NCBI RefSeq assembly: GCF_014356525.2
Contig: NC_052511.1
Location: 29,814,437-29,878,436 of the forward strand
Direction: 5' to 3'
Length of the DNA: 64,000 nucleotides
Source of the DNA: Nilaparvata lugens
Lineage: Eukaryota; Arthropoda; Insecta; Hemiptera; Delphacidae
Below, piece after piece: positions 10,791 through 35,980 of the stretch (its first letter is position 1; the number at the start of each line of letters is the position of its first letter). The notes under the pieces were generated by a model. The model saw nothing but the letters and a program-made list of their open reading frames with translations, had not been told where the DNA came from and ran no database searches. Made by a program: the position numbers and the translations under genes.

Positions 10791-11300
10791 CCCAGTCAGC
10801 AGTAAGGCTTGATTCAAGGCTTGAATTAGAAGCAGCCTTCACTTGTCAATCAAGGCTGAAGTTGAATCCAGCTGAAAACGATCTTGCTTGACATTCAACT
10901 CGAAGTCCCCTTGAATTTCCATACTAGAATCGAAACCCTTGTTTTTCAAGGCTAACAAACTTGATTGGAATTGAAATTTAATATGGCATTCTATGTATTC
11001 GTTCGAATTTAGCTTTTATTGCATGAGTCAAACAAGTCTTGACTTTGTGCCTTGAACTCCCCTTGTCAGTGAAAGCTAACAGTCTTGTTTAGAATCGATC
11101 TTGAATATGGCTCAAAAGGTATTCATTCGAATTTAGCTTTTATTGCATGAGTCAAACAAGTCTTGACTCTGCCTTGAATACCCCTTGTCAGTTAAAGCCG
11201 ATTTGAATTATCTTGAATATAGCTTGCTACACATTCCCTTGAATTTTGTTTCTATTGTGAGTGTCGAACAATCCTGAAGTAGCCTATTCTACATTATCTT
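10791..11300 (+). mobile_element. DNA element end, family with CCCAGTCAGCA terminus
   Basis: It starts CCCAGTCAGCAGTAAGG and runs into many short self-complementary motifs of the CTTGAATC / TCAAGGCTTGA type. About 120 bp within it is duplicated with a 124-bp period (GTATTC..TTCGAATTTAGC at about 10995 and 11119). A related end in the opposite orientation, TGCTGATTGGG, closes at 33061. There is no coding sequence. The far end of this copy is not recognised; it fades near 11300. Confidence 0.55.
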
Positions 11301-11380
11301 CTTTATATTGTCTATTTCTCATTGTCACTTCCAAAATCTCCTCTAATACAGGGGAGAGGAGATCAACCTGTAGTGATCAT

Positions 11381-12650
11381 CCCACACAGCACAAAAAGTT
11401 TAAAAAACGTTTAATAAATATTTAAAATGTATAAATCCAATAAACGTTATGAAAACAATGTTTAATAAACGTTAGGGAATTTTACTAAAATAAACGTTTA
11501 CTCTATAAACGTTTAATAAACGTCTAGAATGTATATTGCTGATAAACGTTATGAAAACAATGTTTGATAAACGTTAGAAATGTTTACTAAAATAAACGTT
11601 AGAAAGGTTGGTACAGTATGGAATTTCTACAGTACCTACCCAGTCAACACACTAAGTGAAAATGTTATAAGTGAAAATCAAACATTTTTTTCAGAAGGTG
11701 TCTCCCCCCCCTCACCTGTGTAACTTAATCCCTAAAAATGTATCAATTTAGGCTTTCTGACCAATAATTCCTAAGTGGAATTGAATTCCAATCCCTTTCT
11801 ATCTTCTTCAAAAATCATCTCCAACTCACCGTTATCGAGATAAAGAAAATGTTTCACACAAATATTAAGACTGAAATTTTTTTGAGTTTTCCAAAAAGTC
11901 TCACTTTAAGCTTTTTGTTCAATCCGGGTGCAGAATTGCAATTCAAATACTTTTTGTCTTTTGCGAAAATTGTCTAAAGTGCACTGTTAACCATATAATT
12001 GACCTTTTGCGCTAAATCCAGAGGCACTTTGAATAAATTTGCCAGATGTTCAAGTTTCCCAAAAAGTCGAAAAATTGTATTTCTAATCAATAGTTCGGAT
12101 GCAGAATTGAATTTCAAACACTTTTTGTCTCTTGCAAAAATCGTCTACAACGCACTGTTGATGATATAATAGACCTTTTGCGCTAATTTTAATCCAGATA
12201 GGGACTTGGAAAAAATTTGACAGATTTCTAAGTTTCCCAAAAATGTTCAAAAAAGCAGTCTTTTATCACTTATTCGGCTACAGAAGTAGATTTCCTGCAC
12301 TTCTTCTTCATGCAAAAATTCTGTCAGACGGGCCGTTGACGGGCTACTAACGTTTAAAATTTTAAATAATTGGTAATTGATGATGGAAAATTTTGAAAAA
12401 AATAATTAACGATTCTGTTCATGTTATAAACATTGATGTCCTAGAATTTCAAATGTTTCCATCCAAAATTGAAAAAGTTATATCATTTTTTCAAATTAGA
12501 ATCCAGTTTGTGCTAAAAATCATGTCACACATTAAGGAAATAGGCTTGGTATGAAATAATTTTCAAGTTTTAAATTCAAATAATAATAAACTAGGTACTA
12601 TTTTATTGATTCCAACATTATTTCAGTGGAAGCACAAATGTCCAAATGTT
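11381..12650 (+). mobile_element. DNA element, CCCACACAGCAC end (copy a1, left arm)
   Basis: It starts CCCACACAGCAC. The first about 210 bp holds eight or nine copies of AAACGTT in self-complementary contexts such as AAACGTTTA. The next 1 kb matches the inverse of 21350-22605 block by block, including an odd triplicated block in which phrases like GACAAAAAGTGTTTGAA recur. The two arms are 9 kb apart in opposite orientation. They are two copies of one family rather than the two ends of a single element, because the second copy interrupts a non-LTR endonuclease frame (22606-23439). No transposase is visible. Confidence 0.8.
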
Positions 12651-12740
12651 TCAAATGATTAATGAAATCATTAATCCGTCCCAGAAATATGGACTGTTTC
12701 AATGTTAACAATAAAGATTGTCTATATCAATAACTTTGAA

Positions 12741-12928
12741 ATTCCCGGGGTGATACATGCTTGTGCGGCTACTGCGCTTGAGCGACAGCCATTAAAGATT
12801 TCCTGTCTCCTTCAGTTTTCAGTAGTTGAAGGGTTGAAGGTGAAGTTGGTTCGTTGTTTGTTTATCCTTTATTTTATCGTGTCATCAAGTTGATGATGAT
12901 TTTTGATTGCTGAAGGTCTTAAATCAAG
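12741..12928 (+). other. Candidate non-coding 5' exon with splice donor
   Basis: A locally GC-richer segment ends at AAATCAAG|GTAAGAT, a good donor. It lies 1548 bp from the CCCACACAGCAC end at 11381. In the inverted copy an analogous segment ends at GAAAG|GTAAGTT, 1519 bp from its end. The shared spacing suggests a 5' exon belonging to the element family. Transcription is not shown by sequence alone. Confidence 0.3.
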
Positions 12929-14051
12929 GTAAGATCATTCATTTATGTCTAGGATATTTATTGATAAGTTTAATAGCATACCGGTACAGAAGTTACCTAC
13001 TAAACAAAGCTGTTTAGCCTAGTGATGGCAAAGCGTTCCCCAGACAAATTTGTAAAGCACATGTTGTTTTTAAAAGCACTACCGGTATGGTAAATAATTA
13101 TGTTAGGCCCTATTAATAACCCTGATACAATATTAATTGCAATGTTTAGTGTGTATAAGTTAATTTTTTTCCATTTCTAAACCCAAACAGTTGATTTAAC
13201 CAACTGTTAACATTGTTGGTACCTTAAACTTGTAAAACAACTATCAAATGTGGTTTCAATTTTATGATTTGGGTAATAATCATAAATTACAGCTGTGATT
13301 CTAGTGGAGAAGATTGTTTTAATTTTCGGAACAAAATATTCCAAATTTATATTTATTTTACAGTTTCGAGTGCTAAGTAAAAAGAAATTTTGTTATCAAT
13401 TGAGATCTTAATCTTTCTAAATTCAAAATTAATAATAATTGTTTCAAGTGTTTGGTGAGAAAATTAGACAAAATTTTATTAAGTGAAGGAAACATAACCT
13501 TTTTTCTGGACTATTTTAATGAATCAAAATTCGGGGGAGGAACAGTTTTGGGCTGTGCCTGTTGATCCTCCCCAAATTATTTTAAATAATAATTTTGTAT
13601 CATTGAATCAATAAAATAATAATAATAAAATAATTTTTAAACTAGTGATTATATGATTCAGTAATATCATAATAGATTGATTTAATTATTATGAATGTTT
13701 AAGATATAAGAAGCTATTGTAAAATTTTACAATAATAAAGCTAATACCAGAATAGGCCTACCCACTAATAATATTAGTTATTTATAGGCATATTAGGGAC
13801 TATGGTTACATTTGACCTAATTAACTTTTTGAATACAGTATTTTGATTAGATAAAACATTATTTATTTCAATATGACTAGTATCAAATCAACCTCTTGAG
13901 AAATACTCTAAATAAACTGTAAATAGCAGCAATCATTCTTATTGATCGGCTACAATTTAATAATTAGTTCATAGTACCTCCCTTGTATTGGTTTATTGTT
14001 TTAATACTATCAATTTATTAAAACCATACTAAATTATTACTTTAAAATTTC

Positions 14052-14530
14052 GGTGTAAATGCACGTCCAGTGCCAACATACCTGTCATCAAATTTTTGGT
14101 TGGGATCGATTATTAAGTATGCTATTTTGAGCACAAAATCACAAAAATTAAACGGCGGTCACTATTGTTTTTGAAATAAACTAAGTTCAAAGTAGCACAA
14201 TTTTACATGCATTTAACCTATGAGTAGCAGCCATTTTGATTATTGAAATCATCAAATTATGATATTCCTAATCTGAGTTTTCCTAACCCAAAGCTTTTCC
14301 TAACCTAAGCTTTATTAACCTAAAGCTTTCCTAACCTTAGCTACTTATGGTTGCTACTTATAGCATAGGTTAAATGCATGTAAAGTTGTGCTACTTTGAA
14401 CTTAGTTTATTTTGAAAACAATAGTGACCGCCGTTTAATTTTTTGATTTTGTGCTCAAAATATCATACTAAATCGATCCCAACCAAAAATTTGATGACAG
14501 GTATGTTGGCACTGGACGTGCACTTTAGCC
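14052..14530. mobile_element. 479-bp foldback DNA element with 8-bp target duplication
   Basis: The arms (about 14052-14225 and 14350-14530) are reverse complements, sharing TGCACGTCCAGTGCC and TTTGATGACAGGTATG. AAAATTTC flanks it on both sides (14044-14051 and 14531-14538). The paralogous site near 24711-24720 reads AAAATTCC with nothing inserted. An 8-bp duplication fits hAT, P or Merlin-type elements; the GG...CC ends do not let me choose. The middle holds a few TTTCCTAACC repeats and no coding sequence. Confidence 0.88.
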
Positions 14531-15228
14531 AAAATTTCTTTCAATTGAATAATTGCTTTCATACATGTTCCATTTGATTTCAGACGAAGGTGGGAATAGA
14601 ACTGATTGATTGATTGATTGATTGAGTACTTTATTTATGTAGATTACAATATACACTGTCTTATACACTTATATACAATAGCTTACAATACAGCAAAATT
14701 ATAGATGAATTTACATGATATAGACTAAGAAAATAATTATTGAACTGTATATGATATGAAAAAGCAATTTGTAATATAATAACTATAGATAATAATTATA
14801 TTGTTATGCATCTACATAAATTGGCGGAGCTTTGGACATATCAATGTCCATTCTTCGGAAAGAATATTAAAAATATCCTCCCCACTAACTCTCTACCAAA
14901 ACGTTAATTTCATTATTTAAACTAAGGATTTATTTATTAATGGAAATATTGTGAAAGTTTTAATCAATATGAATATTTAAGAGAAAAAAAACAGAAAATT
15001 GATAAAGTAAAATAATTATATAGGTAGATAAGATCAAATAATTGATTAATAAAATGAAGTAGGCTGAAAGTAGATCAGGGTAATCAACTTTCAGTAATAT
15101 ACAGCAGTATGCAGTGGATAATTGAAATAACATGAGTTTATATAATATATATATACAATTCGTTCTATAACAGGTTTAAAGGTTTGTATTTGTGGGATGG
15201 GTGGGGGATGGTTGTGCAAGTGATCGTT

Positions 15229-17055
15229 CTAGGGCCGGACAGTTTCAGTCATTTGTTCCAAAAGATGTTTTTTTAAAGTCAGGATGAAGCTCGCTCGGCT
15301 CTTGATGGACCTGATAGAAACAGGAAGTGCATTCCATGCACAACAGGCACTGACTAAGAAGGATTTTGTGAAAATAGTAGTTCGATGATTGGGTATCCTT
15401 AAAGTACTTTCTCCAGTTCTAGTATGTGAAGCATCTATCCTCCTACCTTCAGAGACAAATTTGAAATCATCTTTAAAATAGTTCCGATTACCGTATTTCA
15501 AGATATCTCTAACAAGCTTGACTATTCGAAAAAGCCTTTGATTGGGAAGCTTCAATGTTGAACTAGCAATGTGGGCTGGGGTGATATGATCATGGCGTTG
15601 GAGAGAGTAGACGAAACGTAGACAATAATTTTGGCAACGCTGTAGTTTATCATTCAGAGTGACTTGCATATCGTTAAGAACAGAATTACAATACATTAAA
15701 TGTGGGAAGATGAGAGATTGAACCAATAATAATTTAATGTTTCTAGGGAGAATATCGTGCATTTTCTTCAATGCATGCATGGCTGAGAATACCTTTTTAC
15801 AAGTTTTTTTCACTTGTTCTGACCAGTCAAGAGTATTATTCATAATAATGCCTAAATTTTCAACTGAGCTACAGTAAGGAATCTCATTACCATCTACACT
15901 AATTTTGTGAATCGATTCAAGGTCAATATTGTTTATAAGACGAGAATATCCAATTATAATGGGTTGTGTTTTGATGGGATTAAGCTTAAGGCCATTTTTC
16001 CTTGTCCATTCCACTATCGAATTGATATCCTGATTCATTATTCCAACTGTTTCATTAATTTTTGTTATGGGACAGCTTTAATAGATTTGAAGGTCGTCTG
16101 CATAAGTATGGAAACTGGAGAATTTGATAATGGAAGAAAGGTCATTAGCATACAAAGTGAAGAGGAGAGGGCCTAAAATTGAACCTTGTGGTACTCCATG
16201 CATAACGTTTTTCCAAGTAGACTTATTGTCACCGACAGATACACATTGTTTCCTACCTAATAGATAGGATTTAAACCAAACTAACGAGTTGTGACTGAAA
16301 CCAAGAATAGCCAACTTATTCAGAAGGACTGTATGATCAACAGTATCAAATGCTTTAGAAAAATCAAATAGGGTGAGGATGGTGCATTTTCTTTGGTCCA
16401 TAGCTAACCTTATATCATCAGTGACACAGAGCAGAGCTGTTTCAGTTGAATGGAATTTTCTAAAGCCCGATTGAAAGTTATGAAGCTTACTATTGTTGTC
16501 TAGAAATTTTACAACTTGAGCATGGATGAGTCTTTCTAGCACTTTGGACAATGCAGGTAAAATACTGATTGGTCTAAAATCCTCAACTTTATTGGGTGAT
16601 GGAACTTTATTTAGAGGGCGAACCAGAGCAAACTTCCAGTTTTCAGGGAAAATGCCTTCTTCAAGTGACTTGTTGTATGTAATGGTTGGTAAAACAGCAA
16701 ATAACATCTTCTTGATAAATTTAATAGGAATTTTGTCTACACCCGTAGCATTACTATGAATACGTTGAATTGCTCTGAAAGTGTCTTCTTCTGAGATTGG
16801 ATGGGAATGAAATTGATCAGTAATTGGCAAATCTAAGTTTGTAACCTGCTCTTCAAGATCATCTATATGATTAGCAATGACAACTTCGTCGCGTTGGTTA
16901 GAGTGTGAAACGAAATGGTCATTTATATTGTTCAATGGTAAGTCTATTTGTGGATTCGGTTTCTGTTTGCCAAGCCCGAATTCTTTTATTCCCTGCCAAA
17001 GTGAATTAGAGTCTTGTATGTTGTTGGCCATAACGTTTTCTAAACGTTTATTCAA
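15229..17055 (-). pseudogene. Non-LTR reverse transcriptase, one nonsense codon
   Basis: The frame covers the RT domain and C-terminal region. Visible blocks are FRPISILPALSKVLE (finger/palm), DFSKAFDTVDH, GVPQGSILGPLLF and the catalytic YADD, then GLKLNPIKTQ, VENLGIIM.NTLDW, and a C-terminal LRIPNHRTT..KSF block typical of Jockey/CR1-like elements. A TAA at 16078-16080, eight codons after the start of YADD, separates 325- and 269-codon parts. The reading frame continues on both sides, so a single point mutation explains the break. All other RT blocks are intact, which implies fairly recent death. The N-terminal part before the NKRLENV block is missing because of the adjoining insert. Confidence 0.92.
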
Positions 17056-17089
17056 CCTTTAGTTTGGTACTGACCTTTACGTTTAATAA

Positions 17090-17300
17090 ACATTTATTTA
17101 AACGTTGTATTCAACATTTCGATAAACGTTATATCAACGTTTTGATAAACATTATAGTCAACTTTCAATAAACGTTATATCAACGTTTTGATAAACATTA
17201 TATCAACGTTTTGATAAACATTATATCAACGTTTTGATAAACATTACAGTCAACATTTCAATAAACGTTTTGATGAACATTATAATCAACCATTAGTTAA
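17090..17300 (+). repeat. 23-bp tandem array of AACGTT motifs
   Basis: About eight degenerate units of the form GATAAACATTATATCAACGTT, with AACGTT or AACATT at the core of each. It sits on the far side of the a2 block from the terminus at 22605 and looks like a subterminal array. Confidence 0.75.
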
Positions 17301-17314
17301 GCATTCGATTCTTT

Positions 17315-17850
17315 CCCAGGTAGCACAGAAACGTTGAAATAAAGTTAGAAACACGTAATACCTTAACGTTGAAAACACGAAAAAATGTCCGTCGTTTCCA
17401 CATTATTTTCAACGTTGAATAATAGTTGAAAAAACATCGTGGTAACCATTATCTTCAACTATCAACAGACGTTGAATTAGCCATACTTTTTAACCGGTAC
17501 CTTATTAATTACATGATAATATTTCTAAAATCATTGGAAAGAGATGAAAATACGAAATCATATTTCCATTTATTTACATATGATTTCATGTAACAGAAAT
17601 ATTACCGTGCAATGCGGTACATTGGTAAGGTGAAATAAAAACACAATAAAAACCATATTACTTCAATTTTGATCCACAAAAGTTATTATGATGAAAGTTG
17701 TTTAAAAAACTGAGATGGTTACAACCACATTACCATGGTAATTTAATATACTCTGCCATTGTATAGCTAAAATCTCAAAAATATTCTATGTCTGTAAGAA
17801 ACAGAACATAAAACTATTATATATTATATTGAATGATGAAATACGAAATA
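17315..17850 (+). mobile_element. DNA element end, CCCAGGTAGCACA family (copy b2)
   Basis: It starts CCCAGGTAGCACAGAAACGTT and matches the inverse of about 35165-35880, including TTCAACGTTGAA-type palindromes and the block ACCGTGCAATGCGGTACATTG. It lacks a 3' partner end in the vicinity, so it is a partial copy. Compared with 35291-35402 it lacks a hairpin insertion and so shows the older state. Confidence 0.8.
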
Positions 17851-18035
17851 AATATTTTTTCATTACCATGTTACAGTAAAACACTTTTATAAACTGCTTA
17901 TCACACTACATCCAACCACTTTTTAATTTTAAAAACTGAATATACAAAAGTTATGTATACATTCAAACAAAAATGTTGACTGTAATTGGAATACCAATAA
18001 AAATTGCAATAGATACAGTATTGACATTTCAAAAA

Positions 18036-18842
18036 ATCTGGTGTGGCGCACTCACACAACTTTCCTTGCCGTTATGAAAAATGATAGCCAGACGGTAGTG
18101 TTCACGCGCATCTCAAGTCTACTATTCAAAGATCTGAGCCAGCTGGTGACAGGCCAATAACGCTGGAGACACAAGAGGTCTGCTATCTCTCCATAGTGAA
18201 TGATTTAATAGAATCAACAGTTGTCAACAGTTTGCAATTGAAATAATCACATTTTCTCGAATTTGGAACTTATTTTCAATTTTAGGTGAAAATGTTACTG
18301 AACATTAATTGTATAGATTTTCATGCTCAATCTTTTCCACTTGAATTTTTTTGTTAAAATAGTATTTGAAGCCTGATAATTGAGAATCTGAAATCAAACT
18401 TTGCATAGATGAGGCGGAACTCCTGAAATTTTCAAAGATATGGGACTTGTGGCTGTTGATAGAGCTTAACAATGTCTATTTTAGGTATAAGTTTAATCAG
18501 AATCGTTAGAGACGTTCACGAGAAAATCGCGAAAACCCTGTTTTTGACAACATTTTTGCCATTTTAGTCGTCATCTTGAATTAAATTTGATAGAAATAGT
18601 TTGTGTCGGATCCTTATATTGTAAAGACCTTAAGTTCCAAATTTCAAGTCATTCCGTTAATTGGGAGATGAGATATCGTGTACACAGACACTCATACACA
18701 CATACCAATACCCAAAACCACTTTTTTGGACTCAGGGAACCTTGAAACGTATAGAGAAATTCATAAATTGGGGTACCTTAATTTTTTTTGGATAGCAATA
18801 CTTCCCTTACCTATGGTAATAGGGCAAGGAAAGTAAAAATTG
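18036..18842 (+). mobile_element. R1 repeat (full-length copy)
   Basis: About 807 bp starting TCTGGTGTGGCGCACTCACA and ending in a hairpin CTTCCCTTACCTAT..ATAGGGCAAGGAAAG followed by TAAAAATT. A short CA-rich microsatellite lies about 180 bp before the end. The same unit recurs at 61006-61821 (+), 36609-37215 (-, 3' part missing) and 42666-42836 (+, 5' part only). Different ends, a 3' hairpin and an internal microsatellite recall non-autonomous Helentron/HINE elements. That class assignment is my inference. Confidence 0.8.
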
Positions 18843-19488
18843 GTTTTGTTTTAGTAGAAGCACTAGCTGTATAGAACATGAACTAAATGTGACAGAGAGG
18901 CTTATTTAGTATAGAATAAAGAGACTATAATCACAATTTGGCCATTTGTTTGAGAAGGCTAAATTATGGTAAAAGTTTGGTGGATTTGAAAAAGCTAGCC
19001 AGCAATCAAAATGCTGAGAGAACAAATGGCCACAGTGTTATTATACAGTCTCTCTGTAGTGTGAAATAAAGAAAGTGAATATTAAATGCATGAAAAGTTT
19101 GTATATTGTAAAATTATTACAAAAAGATTATGGATGTTTGAGATTCTCTAAAAATTACTTATTGGCACTTGGCCTAGTTACATGTGATTGGTTGCTGGAT
19201 CATTTCTCCGTTTTTCTCGACCTCCATCATGGTCTTTGGAGAATCAAAACCAATTTTGGATTATTATATGGATTTCTTCATTTGGGGCACTGGAAGTAGA
19301 CTTGATGTTCCACACTGCACCTGAAAACAAAAATTTATAACCCACTGTGAAAAACAATAATATTTAAATTGAAAACTGCCATGTAATTTATATATATTTT
19401 TCCAGAAGAAAAATTTAGTGGGATTGAAGTTAGTAGAGATGTGATTAAGATGAGTTTGAGATGGGATATTATATATGAATATATATAT

Positions 19489-20115
19489 ACAGTTTGAGTC
19501 ATATGTATTGGGAACCATTCAATAACTTTGAGACTATTGTGGATATTACTGTAACTTTCAGGATACTCTATACTCAATTAGTATCATTTAGTAGTACTCA
19601 TTTAGTAGTTATACTCTATACTCTATTCATTTTGTATGAAAGTATCATAGAGCATTTTTATTGATGTCATCTTTCTTGTTTTAAAGAGGTCTTTAAAATG
19701 ATGTATCACACAATTGGTGTTTACATTTAAAATATTCGAGATACAATCCCTAAGTCATCCCCTTACGAGGGGTTGGGATTCAGTTATAAATATGTCAAAA
19801 GGTAGAATAACATTGCAAATCCTGAAATTTACAAAAAAAGGTGTTCACTGGGAACCGCATGGTTTTAAAAAGCCACAAATTTTCAAATTTTGAACAAAAA
19901 CTTTATTTTTTCACACAATGTGTTCTACAAACATGAAACTTGTAATTTTCTCAAAGTTTGTAGAACACATTGTGTAAAAAATAAAGTTTTTGATCAAAAT
20001 TTAAAATTTGTGGCTTTTTTAAAACCATGCGGTTCCAGTAAACACCCTTTTTATATCTAAAACTACAACATTCTCCAACTTATTGAAGGGCTCCCATACA
20101 TATGACTCACTCTGT
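19489..20115. mobile_element. R2 inverted-repeat element (copy 2)
   Basis: The left end ACAGTTTGAGTCATATGTAT and the right end ATATGACTCACTCTGT are inverted repeats, continuing for about 60 bp (CCATTCAATAA.TTTGAGAC). The interior shares GGTGTTTACATTTAAAATATT and the phrase GTCAAAAGGTAGA with the copy at 30705-31490. It has no coding sequence and contains an additional palindrome. Confidence 0.78.
19837..20050. repeat. Palindrome inside R2, about 96-bp arms
   Basis: Arms 19837-19932 and 19956-20050 are near-perfect reverse complements with a 23-bp loop (core phrases GGTTTTAAAAAGCCACAAA and TTCTACAAAC). The R2 copy at 30705 lacks it, so it is a separate insertion or local inverted duplication. 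Confidence 0.9.
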
Positions 20116-20709
20116 ATTTAATAAATATACCTACTCATGCTAAGAACTTGATCTGTGTAGAAAAGTTGGGGAAGATTGTGGGAACAAGTCAACTCATTGA
20201 AGATTCTAGTGAAGAAAAATAAATCAATTTCAAATAACATAGAATAACACTGATATAGCCTATTACGAAGGCCCGTTTACACAGTATAAGTTTAAACTAA
20301 AGTTCAAACCTTTTTTTTAGTTTAAAATAAATTTCTGTTTTTAGAGTATCATTTTGAACTGCCTACCTAACCTAGTCTATAAATCAAGAATTCACAGATC
20401 TTTGAATTAGGTACGGGTACTAAACTCATTGATGTGAGTAACTCAAGATTGATTTTAGTTATTCTTTTCTAATTAGCAATAAAAGTGTGTACTGCATTAT
20501 AATTTTAGAATTTTCTTGTCAGAAATTGAATAAGAATACAGTAACATATGTGCCCACTTTGAAAACAACCAACAACCAACTAGGCAGGTTCTTGGTACGG
20601 TAACTTAGCCCAAGTTAGGCTGGTTTAGTAAAGTTTAGCTTGAAAGTTTGTAGATGATGACTACTAATTAAAGCATAGTCTATTTTTGAGAATGAAATAT
20701 AGGCCTATT

Positions 20710-20815
20710 AAATTTATTTATTTATTCATAGATGGCTTTCATTGGCAGAGAGATCCTTTTGGATGTTCTGCCTTGCCGTATTGGTATTACCCATTGTGAT
20801 TTCCTATCAACACTC
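20710..20815 (-). mobile_element. 3' tail of a non-LTR element or SINE
   Basis: On the minus strand the segment TGCCAATGAAAGCCATCTATG is followed by a (AATA)n tail (20710-20726 on the plus strand). A unique short segment running into a simple-repeat tail is the usual 3' end of a 5'-truncated retroposon. The family is not recognised. Confidence 0.45.
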
Positions 20816-21086
20816 AAGTTTATAGGTTATAATATTAGGTTCTTCATGTTTTTAATATATTAAATAAGATGATATATTATGAAAGATGGTAATATAATAC
20901 GACTTATTTTTTCAACTTTTTAAATAAATAATAGAGACTATACCACAAGGTAACGTTTTCAGCATAGGTTAATTTTATGCTTGCCTAACACAATCACAGA
21001 AAACTATAAAGGGTAACAATGTGAATTTAATGTATCATACACATGAATACATAATATAATAAATAATTTGTAAATGTTTAACTTAC

Positions 21087-21260
21087 CTTTCAATCATTCA
21101 ACGGATACAGAAAACAAAAATAGACGATCACATCACATCCACAATTCCACTCACAGCTTTAAAAATGCGAGGTTAGGGTTACCTTACCGTTGGTCGTTGG
21201 TAACTTGGTATTTTCTTTGAGTTGAGCAGTTTCATTGCGCATGCTTGAATACAATTTTGC
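21087..21260 (-). other. Candidate 5' exon with splice donor in copy a2
   Basis: The minus strand ends at GATTGAAAG|GTAAGTT (donor at 21085-21086), 1519 bp from the element terminus at 22605. It mirrors the candidate exon at 12741-12928. The exon sequences are only weakly alike; spacing and donor are the shared features. Confidence 0.3.
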
Positions 21261-21349
21261 GCGATATTTGAATATTGGAGAATTCATAGATTCCGTGTTT
21301 TTAGGATAATTGACATAATATTAAGCATAATTAAGTGAAGCCACATAAG

Positions 21350-22605
21350 TGGCTTGTGATTGACACTTGAAATATTGTTGGAATCAATATAATAAAAGTG
21401 GTTATCATATTTCGAATTGAAAACTTGAAAATGATTTCAAAGTCTTGGTGTGTTATTTTATAAATGGCATTCTTTCAAGCATAAACTGGAATCCAATATG
21501 AAAAAATGATATAACTTATTCAATTTTGGTTAGAATTATTTGAGATTCTAGGACAATGTTGATAATATAAACAGAAATGTTTTTTGATTTTTTCAAAATT
21601 TTTTATCAATAATTACAAATTATTTAAAATTTTAAACGTCAGTAGCCCGTCAACGGCACGTTTGACGGGATTTTTGCATACCAAAAAAGTGCTGGAAATT
21701 CACTTCTACAGCCGAATTAGTCATAAAAGACTGCTTTTTCGAACATTTTTGGGAAACTTGAAAATCAGTCAAATTTATTCTAAGTCCCTATCTGTATTAA
21801 AATTAGCGCAAAAGGTCTATTATATAATCAACAGTGCGTTGTAGACGATTTTCGCAAGAGACAAAAAGTGTTTGAAATTCAATTCTGCATCCGAATTATT
21901 GATCAGAAATACATTTTTTTACTTTTTTGGGAAACTTAAACATTTGGAAAATTTATTCTAAGTCCTTCTGGATTTAGCGCAAAAGATCAATTATATCGTA
22001 AACAGTGCATTGTAGACGATTTTCGAAAAAGACAAAAAATGTTTGAATTGCAATTCTGAACCCGAATTGATCAACAAAAAGCCCGAAGTGAACTTTTTTG
22101 GAAAACTTACAAAAATTTCAGACTTAATAATTGGTGCAAAACATTATTTTTATCTCGATAACGGTGTGTTGGAGACGATTTTTGAAGAAGATAGAAAGGG
22201 GTTGAAATTCAATTCCACTTGAGAATTGTTGGTTAGAAAGCCTAAATTGAGACATTTTTAGGGATTAAGTTACAAAGGTTAGGGGGGGAGGAGACACCTT
22301 CTGAAAAAAATGTTTGATTTTCACTTAGTGTGTTGACTGGGTAGGTAGGCCTACTGTAAAAATTCCATACTGTACCAACCTTTCTAATGTTTCTTTTAGT
22401 AAACATTTCTAACGTTTATCAAACGTTGTTTTCATAACGTTTATCAGTATTATACATTCCAGACGTTTATTAAACGTTTATAGAGTAAACGTTTATTTTA
22501 GTAAACTTTTCTAACGTTTATTAAACGTTGTTTTCATAACGTTTATCGGATTTATACATTTTAAACATTTATTAAACGTTTTTTAAACTTTTTGTGCTGT
22601 GTGGG
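21350..22605 (-). mobile_element. Terminal arm of copy a2 (matches 11381-12650 inverted)
   Basis: On the minus strand it starts CCCACACAGCACAAAAAGTT at 22605 and runs through an AAACGTT array into the same 1-kb block sequence as 11381-12650. The junction at 22605/22606 falls inside an endonuclease reading frame, which fixes this as a true insertion boundary. Confidence 0.88.
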
Positions 22606-25020: not shown

Positions 25021-27786
25021 CTAAAATTTTAAAATGATAACTTAATAATTGAATAGGCTCAGATTTTTAATTTCATATGAAGCAAAAATTTATTGTAAAA
25101 CAAGCTGCAAATTAGTATAGTAATTTCCAAAGAACCATATTGGAGACTTAAGTCACAATAAATCTCAATAATGTTGGATATGTTACAAGAAGTTTGACGA
25201 ATGAGTGAACTGGCAGAAGTGTGAACCGCGGATGAGTCGGTTTAAGGTTGTGCAAAGGCTAAAAATAAAATTTATACTGGTGATATTTTTCAGTTTGGTT
25301 TTTCGGTTTGTATATCATCAACCTGACAAAATGACAAAATGAAAAGGTATTCTCAGGAAAACATTTTTTCCGATCATTACTTTTTGAGATATGAGAGCCT
25401 AAAGTTTAAATTTTTGGGACAGAACATTTAAAATTCGGTAAAATATAAATCCTCGAGATTTAGAGGATAGATTCTTCATAGTAATGTTGAACTATTAAAA
25501 AAATATTTTCTGAAAATATCCATTTTATCGAAAATACAAGGTTTTTGGGCCACTCTGTATCTATATAGAACAAGACAATTATTTATCATGAAAATATTGG
25601 TTGGTTCTGAATTTATTTATCCTTTTGTGGATACAATCACAAATCATATAAATATAATTTGGAAAGAATAGCAGGATTTGCCCAAAACTATTTTATTCCC
25701 AAATTTTGATTATTTAGTTATTCAGTTATTTATTTACATTGTGTACAAATACTTAACATGAGGAAAGGCACAACAGGCTCATGCCCAAAACTGTCCCATT
25801 TCCAATTTATACTATACTGTCCAAATCAAAATGTTGGTTATGTCACTTTCACTTTTCAAAATACAATTTACACTCTTCAATACTCAGATAAACGAGCAAA
25901 TTTTGAATCTAATAGATACTATTAGAATCTGAAATTAAAAATCCAGAACAGTAAATAAATAATTATTCAAAAAGTCTAAATTTTGAATGAAACTAGAAAT
26001 TTTTGAGCTAAAAACTTCTCACTTTATAGAAAACTAGTCTTATAATGAATAATATGTCCCTTAATGTTTTTATAATTTTACTGCTGAAAGTTCAAGTTTA
26101 ATTTTCATTGATGTTTAAAAAAATATAGGTATAAAAATCAGAAATAAAATATAAATTACTTGCAGGCCCTCTTTTTCATGCCTATATTGACTGGACTACT
26201 ATGGTTGCAACTTTGAGTGAGTTAGTGTGAATGCATTACTGGGATAAAACATACCTATAGTCTTTTTTCTTTAGGGCTACTTTTGAATAATACTTGAGAA
26301 TAGAAATCAAAGAAAAATAAAAATAATATTATTCTAATATTTTTATTTCTTAAAAGAAATATGCCAATTTTAAAATGGGTACTTGAATTTCTGTTTTTAT
26401 TTACATACCTACAGGTATGGTTTGAAAAACAAATACAGCTATCTACTACAGTGCAGTGTAAATATTGCCTAAAACGCTAACCTTGCTAACATATAAAAAT
26501 TAACATACAAAAAAAATAAGTAACATCCATATTTACATAACCAAAAATGTCATATATTCGACTATTAAGGAATAGCACATTCGCTCCTGGGTGGAACATA
26601 TATGTGCCACATGACTAATCAACTCCTTCCAATAAAAAATTAGGTTCACTTCATATATACCAGTCAATTAATACAGGATACTCCACACATTCCAAATCAT
26701 ATCACCTGTTGAAATGAATATTTCCTTAACAGTAATTTGAATTACTCTGGAAGATCGTTAAATTCTTCAAGTTTCTCAAATTTCAGGGTTTTTTCACTCG
26801 TGACACATGTATGTGCCACTCGGTCTTTATATAGAATGGTGAGTGTAAACCAAGGATAGTGTATAGCAGGTTGCCTCAATCGCGTTTACATACGCGGATG
26901 AGATGGCATGAGCCTACGTGGCAAACGCCGGCTTCCCATAAGAATTACATACAAAACACCGCGTCAAATATCACTTCCTCACATAAAAACCGCTGTATTT
27001 ATAAAAAATATGAATATGCTATTCAATTTAGAAAGAAACAAGCTCCACATCAATGTGTATTTTGAAAACATTAATTCATTTCGAAAAGTGTAGAAAGTCC
27101 TTGAATCTAATACTATATTCAATCGGTAAAACCTATTCATATTTGTGAAAAGGCTGGTAACTTATTTGTTTTGGACTTATTTTAAACAATAATATGACAA
27201 AATGAAGCGAACTTATTTAATTTTATGCTGGTCGTCCAATAATATTTAAAAATGATTGTTTCTTATTTGACAATTGCTTGTGAAAATTGATAGTTGTATC
27301 GTCGCCCGGAATGCTAGTTGCAAGCATTTGTATTAATGATATTTGTTTAAGACTTTATCAATTGACATATACCTAGAACCAATTTAGCGAAATCATGGAA
27401 CTGTTCACCATGGTTACAAGTTATTTTTAGAACGTTGAACTGTCTGGTTACTAATAATTATTTCAGTTGTCTACTGGAAAGCGTAGTGCCAACACGTTGC
27501 TCTTGTATTGTGTTTTTGTTTCTGCTCAGTGCAGTATTATTATTATTATTGACGATTATTAGTATATTTTATTGATTATTTTCATGGGACACAAATTTAC
27601 AAATGAAATACCATATATTATTCACGGTAGTATGATATTTTTTATTTCAATGTGTCCATGGGATACTTATGAATGCAAAAACACTTGTGTAAAGCAAGAA
27701 TAGATCTTAATTATAATTTAAATAGTTCAACAAACTATAACTTCAAATAATATAACATTAATTATTCATGAAATTATTCAATTACC
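25021..27786. other. No gene seen
   Basis: AT-rich DNA. GGGCCACTCTGTAT near 25552 marks a repeat fragment shared with about 5703-5716. A segment near 26855-26900 (ATAGCAGGTTGCCT) is a weak inverse match to about 30150-30185. The small frames around 26859-27093 have no domain signature. Confidence 0.4.
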
Positions 27787-27975
27787 TTAAGGACTCGCCA
27801 CACCAAGCTCGCCAGTACCGCCGAGGTAGTACCGCGGGTGGTAGTTTTCTCGGTTGAGCACGCCACACCGAAAAACGTCCGCTAGCGGTAGTCTCCGAGT
27901 AGTGAGTCTAGTAGTGGTGGGAGGGCGTGACTACAGCACTCAGCACTGCGCTACCTCTTCGAATCGCCTGCCATG

Positions 27976-28118
27976 TATTCAGGTTGAGCGCGCCACACTG
28001 AGCTCGCTTTGTCCGCCGTACTAACTTTTGTTGAATCGCCTAGCAGGCGGTCGTAGGTGGTAGTGCGCATTACTACCACCGCGGTAGCGAACTCGGTGTG
28101 GTGCGCTCAACCTGAATA
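27976..28118. mobile_element. 143-bp inner palindromic MITE
   Basis: Ends TATTCAGGTTGAGCGCGCCA and inverted TATTCAGGTTGAGCGCACCA. CATG flanks both sides (27972-27975 and 28119-28122). The GCGCCACAC.GAGCTCGC block resembles the arms of the outer element, so the two families are related. Confidence 0.75.
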
Positions 28119-28122
28119 CATG

Positions 28123-29442
28123 TAACAAAATTGTTACAAATGTTCTCAATAGCTTTGAAAAGAAAGGGTTTGCAGGTGTGACCATGTGTGACCTCAGTAA
28201 AGCGTTCGATATTGTTGACCACAGTATATTGTTGTCGAAACTTTCTTACTATGGTGTTGGGGGTTCAGTTAATCGGCTTTTGATGTCTTATTTGACGGAT
28301 CGCAAGCAGACAGTTAGTGTGGATGGTTGTTTTTCTCATGCGCGTGATATAGAGTATGGGGTTCCACAGGGCTCGGTACTCGGCCCATTATTGTTTATCA
28401 TAATGGTGAATGATATTTCTTTATACATGGAAAACCAGATTGTAAGCTACGCTGATGACACATCATTGTTCTCCAGTAATGTTGATTTGGAATTGCTGAG
28501 GACCCAGATGAGCAATGCCTATGAGAATGTATCGGCTTGGTTCCAGGCTAATTACCTTTCTTTGAATGAAGCGAAAACGCAGACAATGATTTTTAATCTG
28601 AGAAACGTGACGAATGAAATTGAAACCGTTAAACTCCTTGGTATAATGTTGGATTCCAAGCTAACTTGGACAAGTCACATTGATTGGGTGTGTGGACGAC
28701 TCAGCAGGGTGGTGTTTCTGTTAAGACGACTGAAAAATCTTGTTCCTCATCAGTATTTGAAGATTTCATACTTTGGGTTTTTCCAGAGTGTAATGATGTA
28801 CGGGCTTATTCTCTGGGGAGGGGCAGCTAATGTGGGAAGAATTCTATTACTCCAAAAAAAAGTACTAAGAATAATGACTGGTTCAGACTACTATGCGCAT
28901 TGTCGTCCTCTTTTTAAATCACAACATATTATGACAGTGTTCAGTTTGTATGTTATGCTTCTTCTGATAAAAGTAAAAAATGAGTTGCATACTTTGAAGT
29001 GTAGATCAGAAATGCATAGGCACGACACTAGACAGAGTAATTATTTGGATGTTCCCTATGTAAGATTGAGAAAGTTGCAGTGTCAATCTGACGTTTTATC
29101 AATAAGAGCTTTCAATAGATTACCGCTGTGTTCCAGGAATCTGAGTATATCTGTTTTCAAAACAAAAGTGAAAAGGATGCTTTTAGAGAACCCACTGTAC
29201 AGTGTTGGAGAGTTCTTTGATCTCCCTTGTGATGTTATAAATTATTTCTTCCAAGCTGACTGATATATTTATATAATTACGAGAATTGTTGTGTTATAAT
29301 TATTGATTGATGTTTATAGGTATGTTGTAACCTGTATTTTTTTTTTTTTTATATTGAGATGTTTATATGTGACATGGCCCACTGTACTATTTTAAGTATT
29401 TATCGGCTAATAAATATATTTCTATTTCTATTTCTATTTCTA
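28123..29442 (+). mobile_element. 5'-truncated Jockey-like non-LTR retrotransposon
   Basis: The element starts inside its RT frame directly after the inner MITE and ends in a (TTCTA)n tail at about 29408-29442. TACATG occurs at 28117-28122 and again at 29441-29446, a likely target duplication of 4-6 bp. The AATAA signals and T-rich 3' UTR before the tail fit a normal retroposon 3' end. Confidence 0.88.
28178..29263 (+). CDS. Reverse transcriptase C-terminal two-thirds, frame intact
   Basis: The frame is open from the truncation point (about 28123) and includes MCDLSKAFDIVDH, GVPQGSVLGPLLF and the catalytic YADD, then SLNEAKTQTMIF, VKLLGIMLD.KLTW.SHI, and a C-terminal LPLCSRN..ISVFKTK block. 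These are standard for Jockey/CR1-type RTs. No stop or frameshift occurs over 361 codons, unlike the other retroelements here, so this is a recent insertion. It lacks the endonuclease, the RT fingers and an upstream start, so it cannot work alone. The ATG at 28178 is internal. Confidence 0.9.
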   Translation: MTMCDLSKAFDIVDHSILLSKLSYYGVGGSVNRLLMSYLTDRKQTVSVDGCFSHARDIEYGVPQGSVLGPLLFIIMVNDISLYMENQIVSYADDTSLFSSNVDLELLRTQMSNAYENVSAWFQANYLSLNEAKTQTMIFNLRNVTNEIETVKLLGIMLDSKLTWTSHIDWVCGRLSRVVFLLRRLKNLVPHQYLKISYFGFFQSVMMYGLILWGGAANVGRILLLQKKVLRIMTGSDYYAHCRPLFKSQHIMTVFSLYVMLLLIKVKNELHTLKCRSEMHRHDTRQSNYLDVPYVRLRKLQCQSDVLSIRAFNRLPLCSRNLSISVFKTKVKRMLLENPLYSVGEFFDLPCDVINYFFQAD

Positions 29443-29508
29443 CATGGCTAGCGATTTTTAAAACTTCGCTACCGCCGCGGTAGCGAGCTTGGTGTGGCGT
29501 GCCCTTTA

Positions 29509-30704
29509 CAGTACAGTAGTGTAATGCGCTTTATTTTTTGATGAAATGACAGCATTAAAGTCATTAAAAGTCATGATTATCTATTTTTATCAGAATTAGG
29601 ATAAAATAAAAATCTTTATAATGTTTAAATGATGTTCATATATTCTGAGGGCTTATCTAGACTGTTTATTTTTGTGATAAGCTAGGCCACCGTTGATGGG
29701 TTCGCATTGCTATGTTTCAGGAGTTGTTGATAAAATAACGTTAATATCCTGAAATTCCTAAAGAAGCTGTTAGTTCTTTCCACAGACTTCATAAGGATAA
29801 AATTTCTAAATGAGAATAGAATCTGTTTAAGAGAAAAAACTAAAACGATGCAGAAAAAACTAATAGAAAACGTATTTGAAATGGTATTATCAAATCAAAT
29901 TGTGTGTTCAAACGATTTGTTTTAGACTCGCCGGTAACATTTATAGGATTTTTACTGAAAATTAGTTTGATATTGTTTCAAAGGGGATAAAATGCTGAAC
30001 ATTTTGATGTCAATCACTTCTACGTAAAGTTGATGGTTGATTTGCTATGAGGGCTCAAAGTTTGGCATTTTTACATTTGAATGCATGTTAAGCCAGGGCG
30101 AGAGGTCGCAGCATGACGTGACACCATAGCAGGCTGCGTTCTCCACGCATCTTATGTGATCAAGGCAACCTACTATTATACTATTCTTGAGTGTAAACCA
30201 CCTGAACCAACCCATTTTTTTTCAATTATAAGGAAATAGCAGTATCATCAAAGGCCAATGACATACATAAATACATACACAAAATTCATCATTAGTAAAT
30301 TATTATTATTGATCATGTTTTCAAAGTATAAAAATGAAAATCCAAGAAAATATTTGACTTACAGATAGAAAATTGTCCAATATGTTGTGAAATGAAAATA
30401 GACCATTCAATAAACTTATTTGTGAATAAAACAATCATGTCAAAAAGGATTTCTTCTATGAAAGTATGGAATAATAAATTATTAGTCCCAATACATGTGG
30501 AGAAATTGCAAATCAGTTACTTGAATCAAAGAAGAACTCATCGTTTCGTACACTTCACCGCTTGCTCCCAATACTCTTTTCAAATTTCTTCTACATGTTT
30601 GCCTTTTTACAACCAATGTCCAATCACTGCTACCCAAAGACGGAACCTCCTTCAAACACAGTTTTTCAACAACCTTTGAAATTCAACGATACAAATGCAC
30701 ATAT
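29509..30704. other. No gene seen
   Basis: AT-rich DNA. A GC-richer patch at about 30090-30180 weakly matches the inverse of 26855-26920. The frames at 30392-30771 have no domain signature. Confidence 0.4.
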
Positions 30705-31490
30705 ACAGAGTGAGTCATATGTATGGGAACCCTTCAATAATTTGGAGACTGTTGTAGATATAATACTGTAACTTTCAGGATAAGTTATTGATAGAATACT
30801 CTACCTTTTAATGTACAACTGAGTTCCAACCCCACATAAGGGGTTTACTTGGGGGTTGTAACTGGGATATTTAAAATGTAAACACCCATTGTGTGGTTAA
30901 TCATTTTAAAGGTCTTTTTAAAACAAGAAAGATGACATCAATAATAATGATGTATGATACTTGTATCCAAAATGGCGGCTGATTGAAGTTTTAGTTTTTG
31001 AAGAAATGAGGGGTTGTAACTCAAATATTTAAAATGTAAACACCCATTGTGTGGTACATAATTTTAAAGGCCTTTTTAAAACAAGAATGATGACATTAAT
31101 AAAAATGTTCTATGATACTTTTATCAAAAATGGCGGCTGATTGAAGTTTTAGTTTTTATAGAAATGATTGATAAAAGTAATAAAACTTAAAACAACACTT
31201 TTTTGATGAATAACGGAACACATTGAAAAACTGATTATTTATTTAGTAATCTGTTTGGTACTTTTTACATTTCATTTCAAAAGATGCTCCCGAAATGCTC
31301 CCCTTATTCTCTCGTTTGACAGTGTGCCAAACTGTCATAAATAATGTAAATGAGATGTCCTTATGAAGGTCTAAGTCAACCACTTATGAGGGGTTGAAAT
31401 TCATTTATGTGTGTCAAAAGGTAGAGTATTTGACCAATAACTTATCCTGAAAGTTACAGTATGTATATCAGTCTCCAACTTATAAAAGTT
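30705..31490. mobile_element. R2 inverted-repeat element (copy 1)
   Basis: The left end ACAGAGTGAGTCATATGTAT runs into TTTGGAGACTG and CTGTAACTTTCAGG. The right side has the inverse, CCTGAAAGTTACAG and CAGTCTCCAACTT. Inside, a segment of about 158 bp starting GGGGTTGTAACT is tandemly duplicated (30853 and 31011), each copy containing CAAAATGGCGGCTGATTG-like sequence. It has no coding sequence. Confidence 0.8.
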
Positions 31491-32183
31491 TTTAAGCTAC
31501 ATAATCAGCATTCTGAGAATTGATTACCGAGAAATTTTATATTTTACTCATAATAACCTATTAAGTTATCCCACTAAACTGTACATTTCATATTTTACAG
31601 GACCAAGAGCAGAGAAACTACCCCTCATGAAGCTCAAATCGAGGACGATAGCAGTTCAAAGTAAAAATATATAATTAGTTATAAATTGAAAGTTCAATTT
31701 TTGTAATATTTAATAAAAATCATTGCATTTTATTGAAAATAATGTTTTCTTATTTACATTTTTCGCTCATATAGATATACTCTGAAATTAAGCTTTAAAG
31801 AAAATAAACTAATATAGATATTAATATATAATATTTAATATTTTAATAGATATTCAAAGTAATAATATTGTGTTACTCAGATGTATATGAACTGTAATCC
31901 ATTTGAGGTGTTGCAAGCATAGAGGGCTGTTTGAACTAGAGCAGATTTGATTTAATTAATTCATGGAATGGCGAGTGACTCATGCACTGCTCCCTCTCAG
32001 GACAGTCTGCAAGCTGTTATTGGTTGGCAGAGGTCGATCTCGACTCAATCAATACAGCTACAGAGACAGTTTATAGACTGCCCTGACAGGAGAGAATGAA
32101 TAAGTAATTTGCCATTCACAGGAGAATTTTAAGGAATATTACAATTTGAATAATATTAAAAATATAAAATATATATTAATAAT
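31491..32183. other. No gene seen
   Basis: AT-rich; no domain signature and no clear repeat match in the window. Confidence 0.4.
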
Positions 32184-32403
32184 CTGATTCAAGGCTAGTG
32201 CAATCCAATATCAATGCTTAATCATAATTCAAATTTCATCCAGAATTTGAAATAAATCTGTAATTCTTATTATTCATGATTTAATTATTCTTCCAAACTA
32301 ATGCTCCAATCTTACTATTGCCTTAATACTCTATTTCTATACTCAGTGGACATCCATACATTCTATATATAGATGAAATCTATATGGTATATATATATTA
32401 TAG

Positions 32404-32463
<60 letters not shown>

Positions 32464-32653
32464 AATTCATCTATATATATCTATATATATCTGAGTATAG
32501 AAATAGAGTATTAAGGTAATAGTAAGATTGGAGCATTAGTTTGGAAGAATAATTGAATCATGAATAATAAGAATTACAGATTTATTTCAAATTCTGGATG
32601 AAATTTGAATTATGATTAAGCATTGATATTGGATTGCACTGGCCTTGAATCAG
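32184..32653. repeat. Large palindrome with (AT)n core, about 163-bp arms
   Basis: The left arm 32184-32346 and right arm 32491-32653 are near-identical reverse complements. The middle holds an (AT)n run at about 32408-32458 and ATCTATATAT repeats. The right arm ends in CCTTGAATCAG and leads directly into a CTTGAATC-rich DNA-element arm, so the palindrome may sit inside that element. Confidence 0.92.
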
Positions 32654-33061
32654 GATTGATTCACTCTAAACATCCAGCTTGAATCAGACTCTGATTGATC
32701 TAGAATCACAATAGAATCGAGCTTGCATTTCGTGAAAGGTGTGCCAGGTGGCCTTGAATGGGGGGATTGCATCCAGCATGCGTTTCAAGCCTGAGTCAAG
32801 ACTGCGCATCTCAATCCTGATTCGACCGTGCATCTCGGGCCTGAATCAGGCTCGCAACGCGACCTTGATTTTAGCTCGCAGCACCAGCCTGATTAGAGCC
32901 TGCATTTCGAGCTCGAAACTGGCTTGAACGATGTATTAACGGACTCTTGAATTTAACTCATTTCGAGCAAAACGCATGCGAATGAAATCTTGAATCAAGC
33001 CCTCACGTTTGACAAAATGAGCTTGTTTTGATTTCGATTCAAGTTGATTTTGCTGATTGGG
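32654..33061 (-). mobile_element. DNA element end, CCCARTCAGCA family (second copy)
   Basis: On the minus strand the terminus is CCCAATCAGCAAAATCAAC at 33061, followed inward by many CTTGAATC, TCAGGCT and related short motifs. It is the counterpart of the end at 10791. The small plus-strand frame at 32739-32927 is an artefact of the repeated motifs. Confidence 0.55.
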
Positions 33062-34427
33062 CTTTTTTAAAAATGCACTAAAAAGAAGAAAATAGCTTTT
33101 TTATTACTCTTGTTTAAAAAAAATTCACTTCATATCCCTGAGAAAAAATTCTAATTACAACCCAGGTAGCACACCTGCGTGTTTCCAACATTGAAATTTT
33201 GAGGTTGAATAACCGTTAGTGGTTGAATTTTTCAACGTTTTAAATGCAACATTGTTTTAAACGGTTGCTCTCTCATTGAAAACACGTTGAAAACGAGCTT
33301 CCAATTCCACCACTCACAGCGCTACAGTAGTCCTTATACAAAAACGGATCTAGCAACTCTCATCAAATACACCATTTCATGTTTGAATTCTCATCACGTT
33401 GATGAATCTGTGAACTCTTTTAGAAGTGTCTACCCATTCCACTTTGACTTGGTAGGTTGATTCAATTTATTATTTTTATTTAAAAAATGAGATTGTTCGG
33501 TGATTTATGGTCTAAACTTGAAAGCAAATATTGTGTGTTATTCACACATGTTTACATTTGAGGTTAGGGTTAGGTTTTATTGTTAAATTAGAGGGCTCTA
33601 ATTTAATATATTAAAAATTAATATAATACAATGAGCTTGGTTTTAAGTATTGTACATGTAGTCTACTACTTAACTTCCAAATAAATTACAATTACTATGA
33701 TTTCTGCACAAATATTTGCATTATGTTATATCTATGTATTGTTTTTGTCACAGGACTGCTTGTGTTGAGAAATTCAATCAAACTTAATATAATAAAAAAT
33801 ATAAATTTTTGCCAAACATAACCCAATTTAACCTGCAAACAATGAAAGTCTGTTGCTATGGCACTCATAAATTAATAGTCTATGTAGGCTAACATCAAAG
33901 TGATTGCTTTTAACAAGTTCAGTAATTAACTCGGTGATCCAAGAAATTGAAAACGGGTGTCCGGAGTTAAGCTCATATATATTATTACATTTTCCAAATA
34001 TCGTCATTCCATGGTGACGAAATTTAGCTTGAACTTGTTCATTTAAAAATTAAACTCTCAATTAATTTATGCATGTTTACAACCCATATGTCAAGGATAT
34101 TTTTGATTAATTCCATTGCGATTTTAAACTTTTGGTGTAGGTTTACAAAATTTAGTAGGCCAATAAAAAATGGTTGAAATATCTGCATACAACTATTTTT
34201 ATCTAAAAAAACAGTCATCACCTCGCCTTGTGATTCAAAATATCAATGTGTATAAAAAAATATTAGATGTGCACTTGAGAAAAATTGCTGTACTTGTTGT
34301 TAAAAGCAATTCCCTTTCAACCATGCAACATCTGTATCAAATAATAACCCCTATGTGGTGGCAAAATTTCATCTGCCTTCATATTTATAGAATTTCTCAT
34401 GAAAATTTATATTACCTTATGTTTCAG

Positions 34428-34570
34428 ATTTTATCAAAAAATCTTGTGGGTCGACTGTGGACATTGAGACCCAAATTGAAGACGCTATTGAGGATTGGTT
34501 AAAATATGCGACAGTCAGAGTATTTTCAGTGGAGAAAAAGAACAATCTAATTTTGTCAGTACCTAATTAA
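34428..34570 (+). pseudogene. Candidate terminal coding exon of the b1 element
   Basis: A pyrimidine-rich acceptor (CCTTATGTTTCAG) ends at 34427. From phase 2 the sequence then reads 46 codons to a TAA at 34568-34570. The peptide has an acidic-amphipathic core (TQIEDAIEDWLKYATVRV) and a polar end. The core resembles the C-terminal helix of arthropod proteins of the DUF4806 type, an impression I cannot test here. No upstream exons were recognised, so this is either a remnant of the element's own gene or chance. Confidence 0.35.
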
Positions 34571-35290
34571 AAAGTATTATGAAATGAAAGTGGAAAGTTA
34601 TTTTGAAAGTTCCTTTCTATTGAAACACTGTAATAAAATATTTGTTTGTCTATTGCATAAATCACAAACTATCATCATACCTGAAAACTAGAATATAGGC
34701 GGGTTTATACGATGCCAATTGGCAAGACAATAATATTGTCTTCTGAAATGTACAGCTGGTGTAAAGTATCAATTGAATCTTTCAATTCTAAAACCATCAT
34801 CTAGGAATGGCTAAATAAAATCTGATTGACAACATAAGCTGACGGTTTAAGAAGACAATTATTGTTTTGCCAATTGGCATAGTTTAAAACTGCCATAAAT
34901 GTCAAGTAAAAATTTAGATGATCTATATTATTTGCTAGAAAGAATTGAGCTATTTTTGCTCATCACAGATGAAATTATCATACTAAAAATTCAAGATTTT
35001 TAAACAACTGCTGAATTATATATACATATATATAGCGAGTTTTTGCAACTTCAGTTGTGTCACTTCTCGCACGCCATCTTTCCTTATTTATCCAGTCTCC
35101 TTCAAAGAGACCTCTACTCTTGAACTGCTGAATTCTTGAAATAATAGTTTTAAGTTATGTTTCTTAGAGACATAAAATGTTTTTGACTTGGCAGAGTAGG
35201 TATATTAAATTACCATGGTAATTTGGTTGTAACCATCTCAGTTTTTAAAACAAACTTTCATCATACTAATTTTTGTGGATCAAAATTGAA

Positions 35291-35402
35291 TATGGAAATA
35301 GAAAGAAAAATAAAAATCTCAGTACCCTTTTTGAATCATTTAAATAATGATTAAATAATTCAAAAAGGGTACTGAGATTTTTATTTTTCTTCCTATTTCC
35401 AT
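35291..35402. repeat. Hairpin insertion within b1
   Basis: About 50-bp arms (TATGGAAATAGAAAG..., TCTCAGTACCCTTTTTGAA) fold back on each other. The b2 copy near 17665-17690 goes straight from ATATTACTTC to AATTTTGATCC without it. TATGG follows GAA on both sides in b1, a possible duplication. Confidence 0.75.
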
Positions 35403-35880
35403 AAAAAGTAGTCCTATACAGAAAAGAGATGAATATGGTTTTTATTGTGTGTTTTTAATGTCACCTTACCAATGTACCGCATTGCACGGTAATATTTCTG
35501 TTACATGAAATCATATGTAAATAAATGGAAATATGATTTCGTATTTTCATCTCTTTTCAAATGATTTTAGAAATATTACCATGTAATTGATAAGGTAACG
35601 GTTCAAAAGTATGGCTAATTCAACGTCTATTTATAGTTGAAAATGATGGTTGTCACGACATGCTTTCAACGTCTATTTATAGTTGAAAATAATGGTTGTC
35701 ACGACGTGCTTTTTGAAAATAATGGTTGTTACAATGTTTTTTCAACTATTATTCAACGTTGAAAATAATGTGGAAACGGCGGACATTTTTTTGTGTTTTC
35801 AACGTTGAATTTCAACGTCTTTTCAACGTTAAGGTATAACGTGTTTCTAACGTTATTTCAACGTTTCTGTGCTACCTGGG

Positions 35881-35980
35881 AAGTCAAACAATAAAAATTG
35901 TGGCTTAAACTTGATTAAGCTTCAATATCGGGGTACCAAGCTTCGCTAAGTTTGAGCCATATATTTTATCGTTTGACTTG
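35881..35980. repeat. 100-bp imperfect palindrome
   Basis: AAGTCAAACAATAAAAATTG on the left is mirrored by ATATTTTATCGTTTGACTT on the right, directly beside the b1 right end. It is probably a small MITE. Confidence 0.6.

Follow-up and report, generated by a model that had tools for sequence, protein, structure and literature searches.

CCC-ended DNA transposon families of Nilaparvata lugens very likely belong to the TRC branch of CACTA/EnSpm

In our study, three families of DNA transposons, called A, B and C, were found in a stretch of 64,000 nucleotides from Nilaparvata lugens (the window), and it is highly likely that they are members of the TRC branch of CACTA/EnSpm. The assignment is very probable for A and probable for B and C. 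Animal TRC elements have CCC ends, a 2-bp target duplication and a Transposase_21-type transposase, as given in the excerpted text of PMC1636069. Ends starting with CCC were found in all three families, exact 2-bp duplications were found in 9 of 14 insertions, and a TRC-like open frame was found between the ends of an A element. No transposase was found between the ends of the B and C copies searched, so their TRC membership rests on the ends and the duplications. The first-pass annotation of this DNA had stated that the superfamily could not be named; the CCC ends, the 2-bp duplications and the frame linked to A now supply the name.

The shared terminus CCCANNNAGCA was present at exactly seven sites in the window when both strands were searched, and there was no further exact site; 1.07 sites per window, on both strands, are expected by chance from a first-order Markov estimate. 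Each of the seven ends listed in the first-pass annotation was found at its position and strand, and all of them match CCCANNNAGCA. In the 1.085-Gb assembly the terminus occurred 15,622 times, compared with 8,306 times for the reversed control. Among the genome copies with distinct flanks, 27 right ends of B, 26 right ends of C and 10 left ends of C (the window's own counted) begin exactly at CCC. These copies were identical over all 16 tabulated terminal bases and the agreement stopped outside, which places the true ends of these three types where they had been claimed. The loci were chosen by end similarity, so that lost or changed ends are under-represented in the tally, and locus L036, among the 30 for the B right end, was left out of the count as it lacked the terminal bases. 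At least 41 matches to the B right end were found among the matches listed (230 candidates, 40 scored). The best 40 of 159 matches were used for the C right end, the best 40 of 190 for the full C left end, the best 40 of 171 for the A right end and the best 40 of 85 for the near-full A left end; the copy numbers of A, B and C are therefore lower bounds. Scanning of viral_contigs and genome_contigs with the end sequences gave no match. In open-licence PubMed Central text the end sequences occurred in 45 papers, of which the 20 listed were unrelated by title, one planthopper paper having the letters in a primer.

An empty site was provided by a hairpin repeat, one arm of which had received both C and B. 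The joined flanks were aligned to the intact arm, and the C and B insertions were each found to start and stop at their own CCC ends, with 2 bp extra per junction. The flanks of the window C element are CA and CT, so the 2-bp case there rests on length; slippage in the T run at this junction is possible. Exact 2-bp duplications were distributed over five of ten C insertions, three of three B insertions and the single A insertion, and the expectation that the families would not differ in their target duplication was borne out. The ten C copies with both ends had identical flanking dinucleotides in five cases (AC, TC, AA, CA and TT); four of the remaining pairs, including that of the window copy, differ by one base and one pair differs by both. 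A chance match of dinucleotides was estimated by hand at about one per ten to sixteen pairs. In the fluke TRC element, the exact duplication was reported in 7 of 14 insertions (PMC1636069, excerpt).

The features of the window are given in Table 1.

Table 1. Coordinates of the transposable elements, their ends and the associated repeats in the window
Feature	Position	Strand	Details and evidence
Hairpin repeat that took C and B	10777..36090 (limits approximate)		arm pieces 10777-10790, 33062-33160 and 35881-35922 vs 35938-36090
C element with later insertions	10791..33061	+	22,271 bp; empty site, end-paired copies, collinear copy L071
C left end CCCAGTCAGCA with CTTGA/TCAAG array	10791..11250	+	10/10 distinct copies begin there
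A right-type end and arm, A-derived relic carried inside C	11381..12625	+	positions relative to C-left ends in copies
LINE split by A element	14605..23715	-	3' part 14605-17013, 5' part 22606-23715; 9-bp duplication ATAGAACTG; absent from L071
A element inside LINE	17014..22605	+	left end short by ~75 bp; right end CCCACACAGCAC at 22605; intact left end in L027, array similarity
B right-type end nested in A element	17315..17820	+	same arrangement in L027
Stretch with second LINE fragment, inserted in C	27626..29503	+	RVT_1; absent from L071
C right end CCCAATCAGCA with CTTGA/TCAAG array	32650..33061	-	26 distinct flanks
B element	33161..35880	+	left CCCAGGTAGCACACCTG, right CCCAGGTAGCACAGAAACG, duplication AA; empty site, copies

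The ends at 11381 and 22605 had been taken as the two ends of one element, and this pairing was not sustained, as they lie on different insertions. The 3' part of the minus-strand LINE contains the reverse transcriptase and the 5' part the endonuclease, and the two are flanked by ATAGAACTG. The C copy at L071 contains neither the LINE nor the stretch 27626-29503; the rest is collinear apart from smaller gaps, and about 1.1 kb near its left end is absent from the window C copy. From the LINE duplication and the LINE-free copy it follows that the A element ending at 22605 lies within the LINE and that 11381 is not its other end, and a single A element of 11.2 kb (11381-22605) was ruled out. The left tip of the LINE-borne A element was thus lost along with part of the LINE linker. 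A hybrid element from 17315 to 22605 was rejected because it is flanked by TT on one side and AA on the other. When the lists were compared by hand, 15 of the best 40 A-right places were found 0.6 or 1.7 kb inside C left ends; the 11381 end is part of C, where it is an A-derived relic. No second A end was seen in the first 9.8 kb of the L071 copy. Four B-right places, among the matches listed, sit 386-454 bp inside A left ends, and no second end was found for the B copy beginning at 17315. The end-paired C copies, among the matches listed, measured 11.3-15.3 kb in eight of ten cases and about 22 kb in two, the window's included.

Further repeats were found in the window. A tandem repeat of about 1.06 kb is present inside C at 13098-14604 and 23716-25031, where it is split by the LINE. 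One portion of this repeat is similar to the sequence next to the TRC gene in the A element on C4, which is described below. Coding sequence was looked for in the R repeat of C and none was seen. Hairpin repeats were located at 8276-8499, 14045-14537, 19834-20052, 24053-24206, 32184-32653 and 35291-35403, and the length of the one at 32184-32653, in the right part of C, varies among C copies. A dispersed repeat of about 0.8 kb has several window copies (18031-18845, 36608-37219, 42660-42835 and 61001-61824), and 1662-2437 is filled by tandem units of about 178 bp in an almost perfect array. The window also carries LINE and Ty3-type proteins; the named relatives of its reverse transcriptase come from a hemipteran insect, butterflies, a fly, a fish and a coral.

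The subterminal arrays were examined over 400 bp inside each end, with 300 dinucleotide shuffles per end. The two A ends contained 8 and 9 copies of AACGTT, which were reached by none of the 300 shuffles in either case. The B ends contained three copies at 17315 and five at 35880 (0/300 shuffles each) and only one at 33161 (69/300 shuffles reach one), where GTTGAA/TTCAAC was found in four copies (0/300 shuffles). The two C ends contained 13 and 10 copies of CTTGA/TCAAG (0/300 shuffles). The first-pass annotation had described family-specific palindrome arrays with diverging subterminal sites. The dense arrays and the distinct motif of C were upheld; the separation of A from B was not, as the core AACGTT is common to both and only its neighbours differ, so that only C is clearly different in its array. 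Three of the motifs proposed there had been overstated: TTCAACGTTGAA, given as a many-copy motif, had one copy at 17315, two at 35880 and none at 33161; TCAAGGCTTGA, likewise given, was found among the ends only at the left C end, with another copy at 41029; and CTTGAATC is not self-complementary.

The left and right ends of B and C are identical over 11-13 bp only, with the dense motif arrays further in. Beyond 13 bp, the comparison of left with right end scored 28-29 in B (best of 60 shuffles, 29) and 30 in C (best shuffle, 28), whereas ends of the same type scored 319 and 589. The array left of 17315 scored 75 and 80 against the A arrays (best shuffles, 34 and 32) and is related to them. 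A 23-bp tandem repeat with AACGTTTTGA at 17076-17296 forms much of the A left array.

The whole A left end, CCCACACAGCACACTGATG, was found at locus L027, which shows the array left of 17315 intact. Eight A pairs were present among the matches listed, of which seven ranged from 4,977 to 5,688 bp and one measured 11,177 bp. At C4:8326840-8339103, an A element of 12,264 bp was found that is bounded by an A end on each side, with TT duplicated at the insertion, and contains between the ends a TRC-like open frame. Its right end is CCCACACAGCAC, where a 290-bp stretch has 94% identity with the A-right arm of the window. The frame is 424 amino acids long and shows, by translated match alone, a 32% match (E 6.5e-9) to the PF02992 protein of the same genome. 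From its sequence, the C4 element is a candidate autonomous element. Two of the best 40 A left ends (C4 and C15) point towards a TRC-like match 7.4-8.5 kb away, with one and the same relative orientation, where about 0.02 such pairings are expected by chance (estimated by hand); the frame linked at C15 has only 196 amino acids. A second A end was searched for at L084 and L085, about 7 kb each, and none was seen; the TRC loci L089-L094, six stretches of about 3.5 kb, showed no such ends either. It is improbable that the C4 gene is part of an independent element inserted into an A copy and so does not represent the A transposase; the seven A pairs of 5.0-5.7 kb, far below 12.3 kb, would agree with such nesting, but the A left end on C15 also has a TRC match, about as far away and oriented alike, and the C4 sequence past the A right arm is also common to C.

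The sequence CCCAGTCAACAC was found 258 bp inside the A right-type end, at 11639 (+) and 22341 (-) in the window and at 8327101 in the C4 element. Its first 10 letters are those of a published mosquito TRC end, and it possibly represents an older end now enclosed by A.

A six-frame domain search of 10790-33100, the window C element, gave no transposase domain, the only matches being to reverse transcriptase, endonuclease and, weakly, DUF5960 and deaminase. Neither the window B element, searched in six frames, nor 9.8 of the 11.3 kb of one C copy yielded a transposase domain. The PF02992 profile search of the genome yielded one gene above the cut-off (L086, E 3.9e-13), with no exact CCCANNNAGCA end within 16 kb. 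A translated search with this gene gave 28 TRC-like matches in the genome, half of which (14) lie in frames of 300 amino acids or more without a stop. Six TRC-like frames were scanned; four reach PF02992 or DUF1258, all under the curated cut-offs, and two reach nothing. The search of long copies for a shared transposase, as had been suggested, gave a TRC-like frame between A ends and none between B or C ends. The related proposal of one transposition system is supported as one type of system by the real common end and the like 2-bp duplications; it is not supported as one and the same transposase, none having been found for B or C. That A alone is TRC, with B or C drawn from another superfamily having a convergently similar end, is somewhat less probable still than a nested C4 gene. 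The missing transposase of B and C and the different array motif of C would suit it, but the eight fixed terminal positions, the duplication length and the design of a short end plus array are identical across the families.

The TRC assignment was also compared with ISL2EU and Spy of the PHIS superfamily, which have a 2-bp AT duplication or none and which are a very unlikely source of A, B and C. Both fetched B copies contained AT on both sides and 11 of the 27 B-right flanks end in AT, as in ISL2EU. However, ISL2EU ends usually start with GG and the duplication is AT, whereas here the ends are CCC and the C duplications vary, including AC, TC and CA. Spy inserts between AAA and TTT of AAATTT without duplication, whereas here the flanks vary and duplications are present. 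The A element, moreover, carries a TRC-like frame. Plant-type CACTA, with CACTA termini and a 3-bp duplication, was rejected on the CCC termini and the 2-bp duplication. The hAT elements, maize Ac/Ds included, have a target duplication of 8 bp and were rejected on the 2 bp found here. That the shared end is a chance pattern without biological meaning is hardly credible: about one match per window is expected and eight fetched genome-wide matches do not belong to A, B or C, but the exact boundaries in dozens of copies, the empty sites and the duplications refute it.

The published TRC ends are CCCTAGTAGCACC in beetle and CCCAGTCAAC in mosquito, each with a 2-bp duplication (PMC1636069, excerpt); the beetle end is similar to the B end CCCAGGTAGCACA. 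SmTRC1 and the Tribolium and Aedes TRC elements are like A, B and C in their CCC ends and 2-bp duplication; SmTRC1 is 4.5 kb long with end repeats of 54 bp and the beetle element has 27 bp, whereas 11-13 bp plus family arrays, in elements up to 11-22 kb, were found here (same excerpt). In Hydra, Spongebob (EnSpm-4N1_HM), which is assigned to TRC, has the end CCCAGCCAACATTGAC and a 2-bp duplication, as here; its consensus of 5.8 kb is unlike the present elements, and the excerpted description contains no arrays (PMC4298943). The soybean Tgmt*, a plant CACTA element of 20.5 kb, resembles them in its 13-bp ends and in asymmetric, family-specific subterminal repeats that can form palindromes, and differs in its CACTA ends and 3-bp duplication (PMC2613891, excerpt). 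Maize Ac/Ds comprises heterogeneous elements with a common 11-bp end and subterminal repeats, as found here (PMC3260210, excerpt).

In the proposed mechanism, the conserved CCC terminus would be where the transposase cuts, and docking of the transposase or of a second element protein may take place on the inner arrays, by analogy with plant CACTA (PMC2613891, excerpt). The mobilization of B and C would depend on TRC transposases encoded at other places in the genome and acting in trans. A rather doubtful possibility is that a single TRC transposase recognizes nothing but the common CCCANNNAGCA terminus and mobilizes families whose subterminal codes are of two unrelated kinds, AACGTT for A and B and CTTGA for C; 11-kb elements with no detected transposase would be among those moved. 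If this were true, the recognition of the terminus and of the arrays would be separable, with differing evolutionary speeds within one animal genome.

The kind of element is already known, whereas the families appear to be new; no earlier report of A, B or C was found in open-licence PubMed Central, and Repbase may already hold entries for some of them. With our study, the superfamily can be named, the ends and duplications of several animal TRC families are known exactly, and a candidate for an autonomous element is at hand. In plant CACTA, the subterminal repeats and their binding proteins have been suggested to diversify together (PMC2613891, excerpt). The two array types and the 28 TRC-like matches in one animal genome make this idea of co-diversification between array and protein testable.
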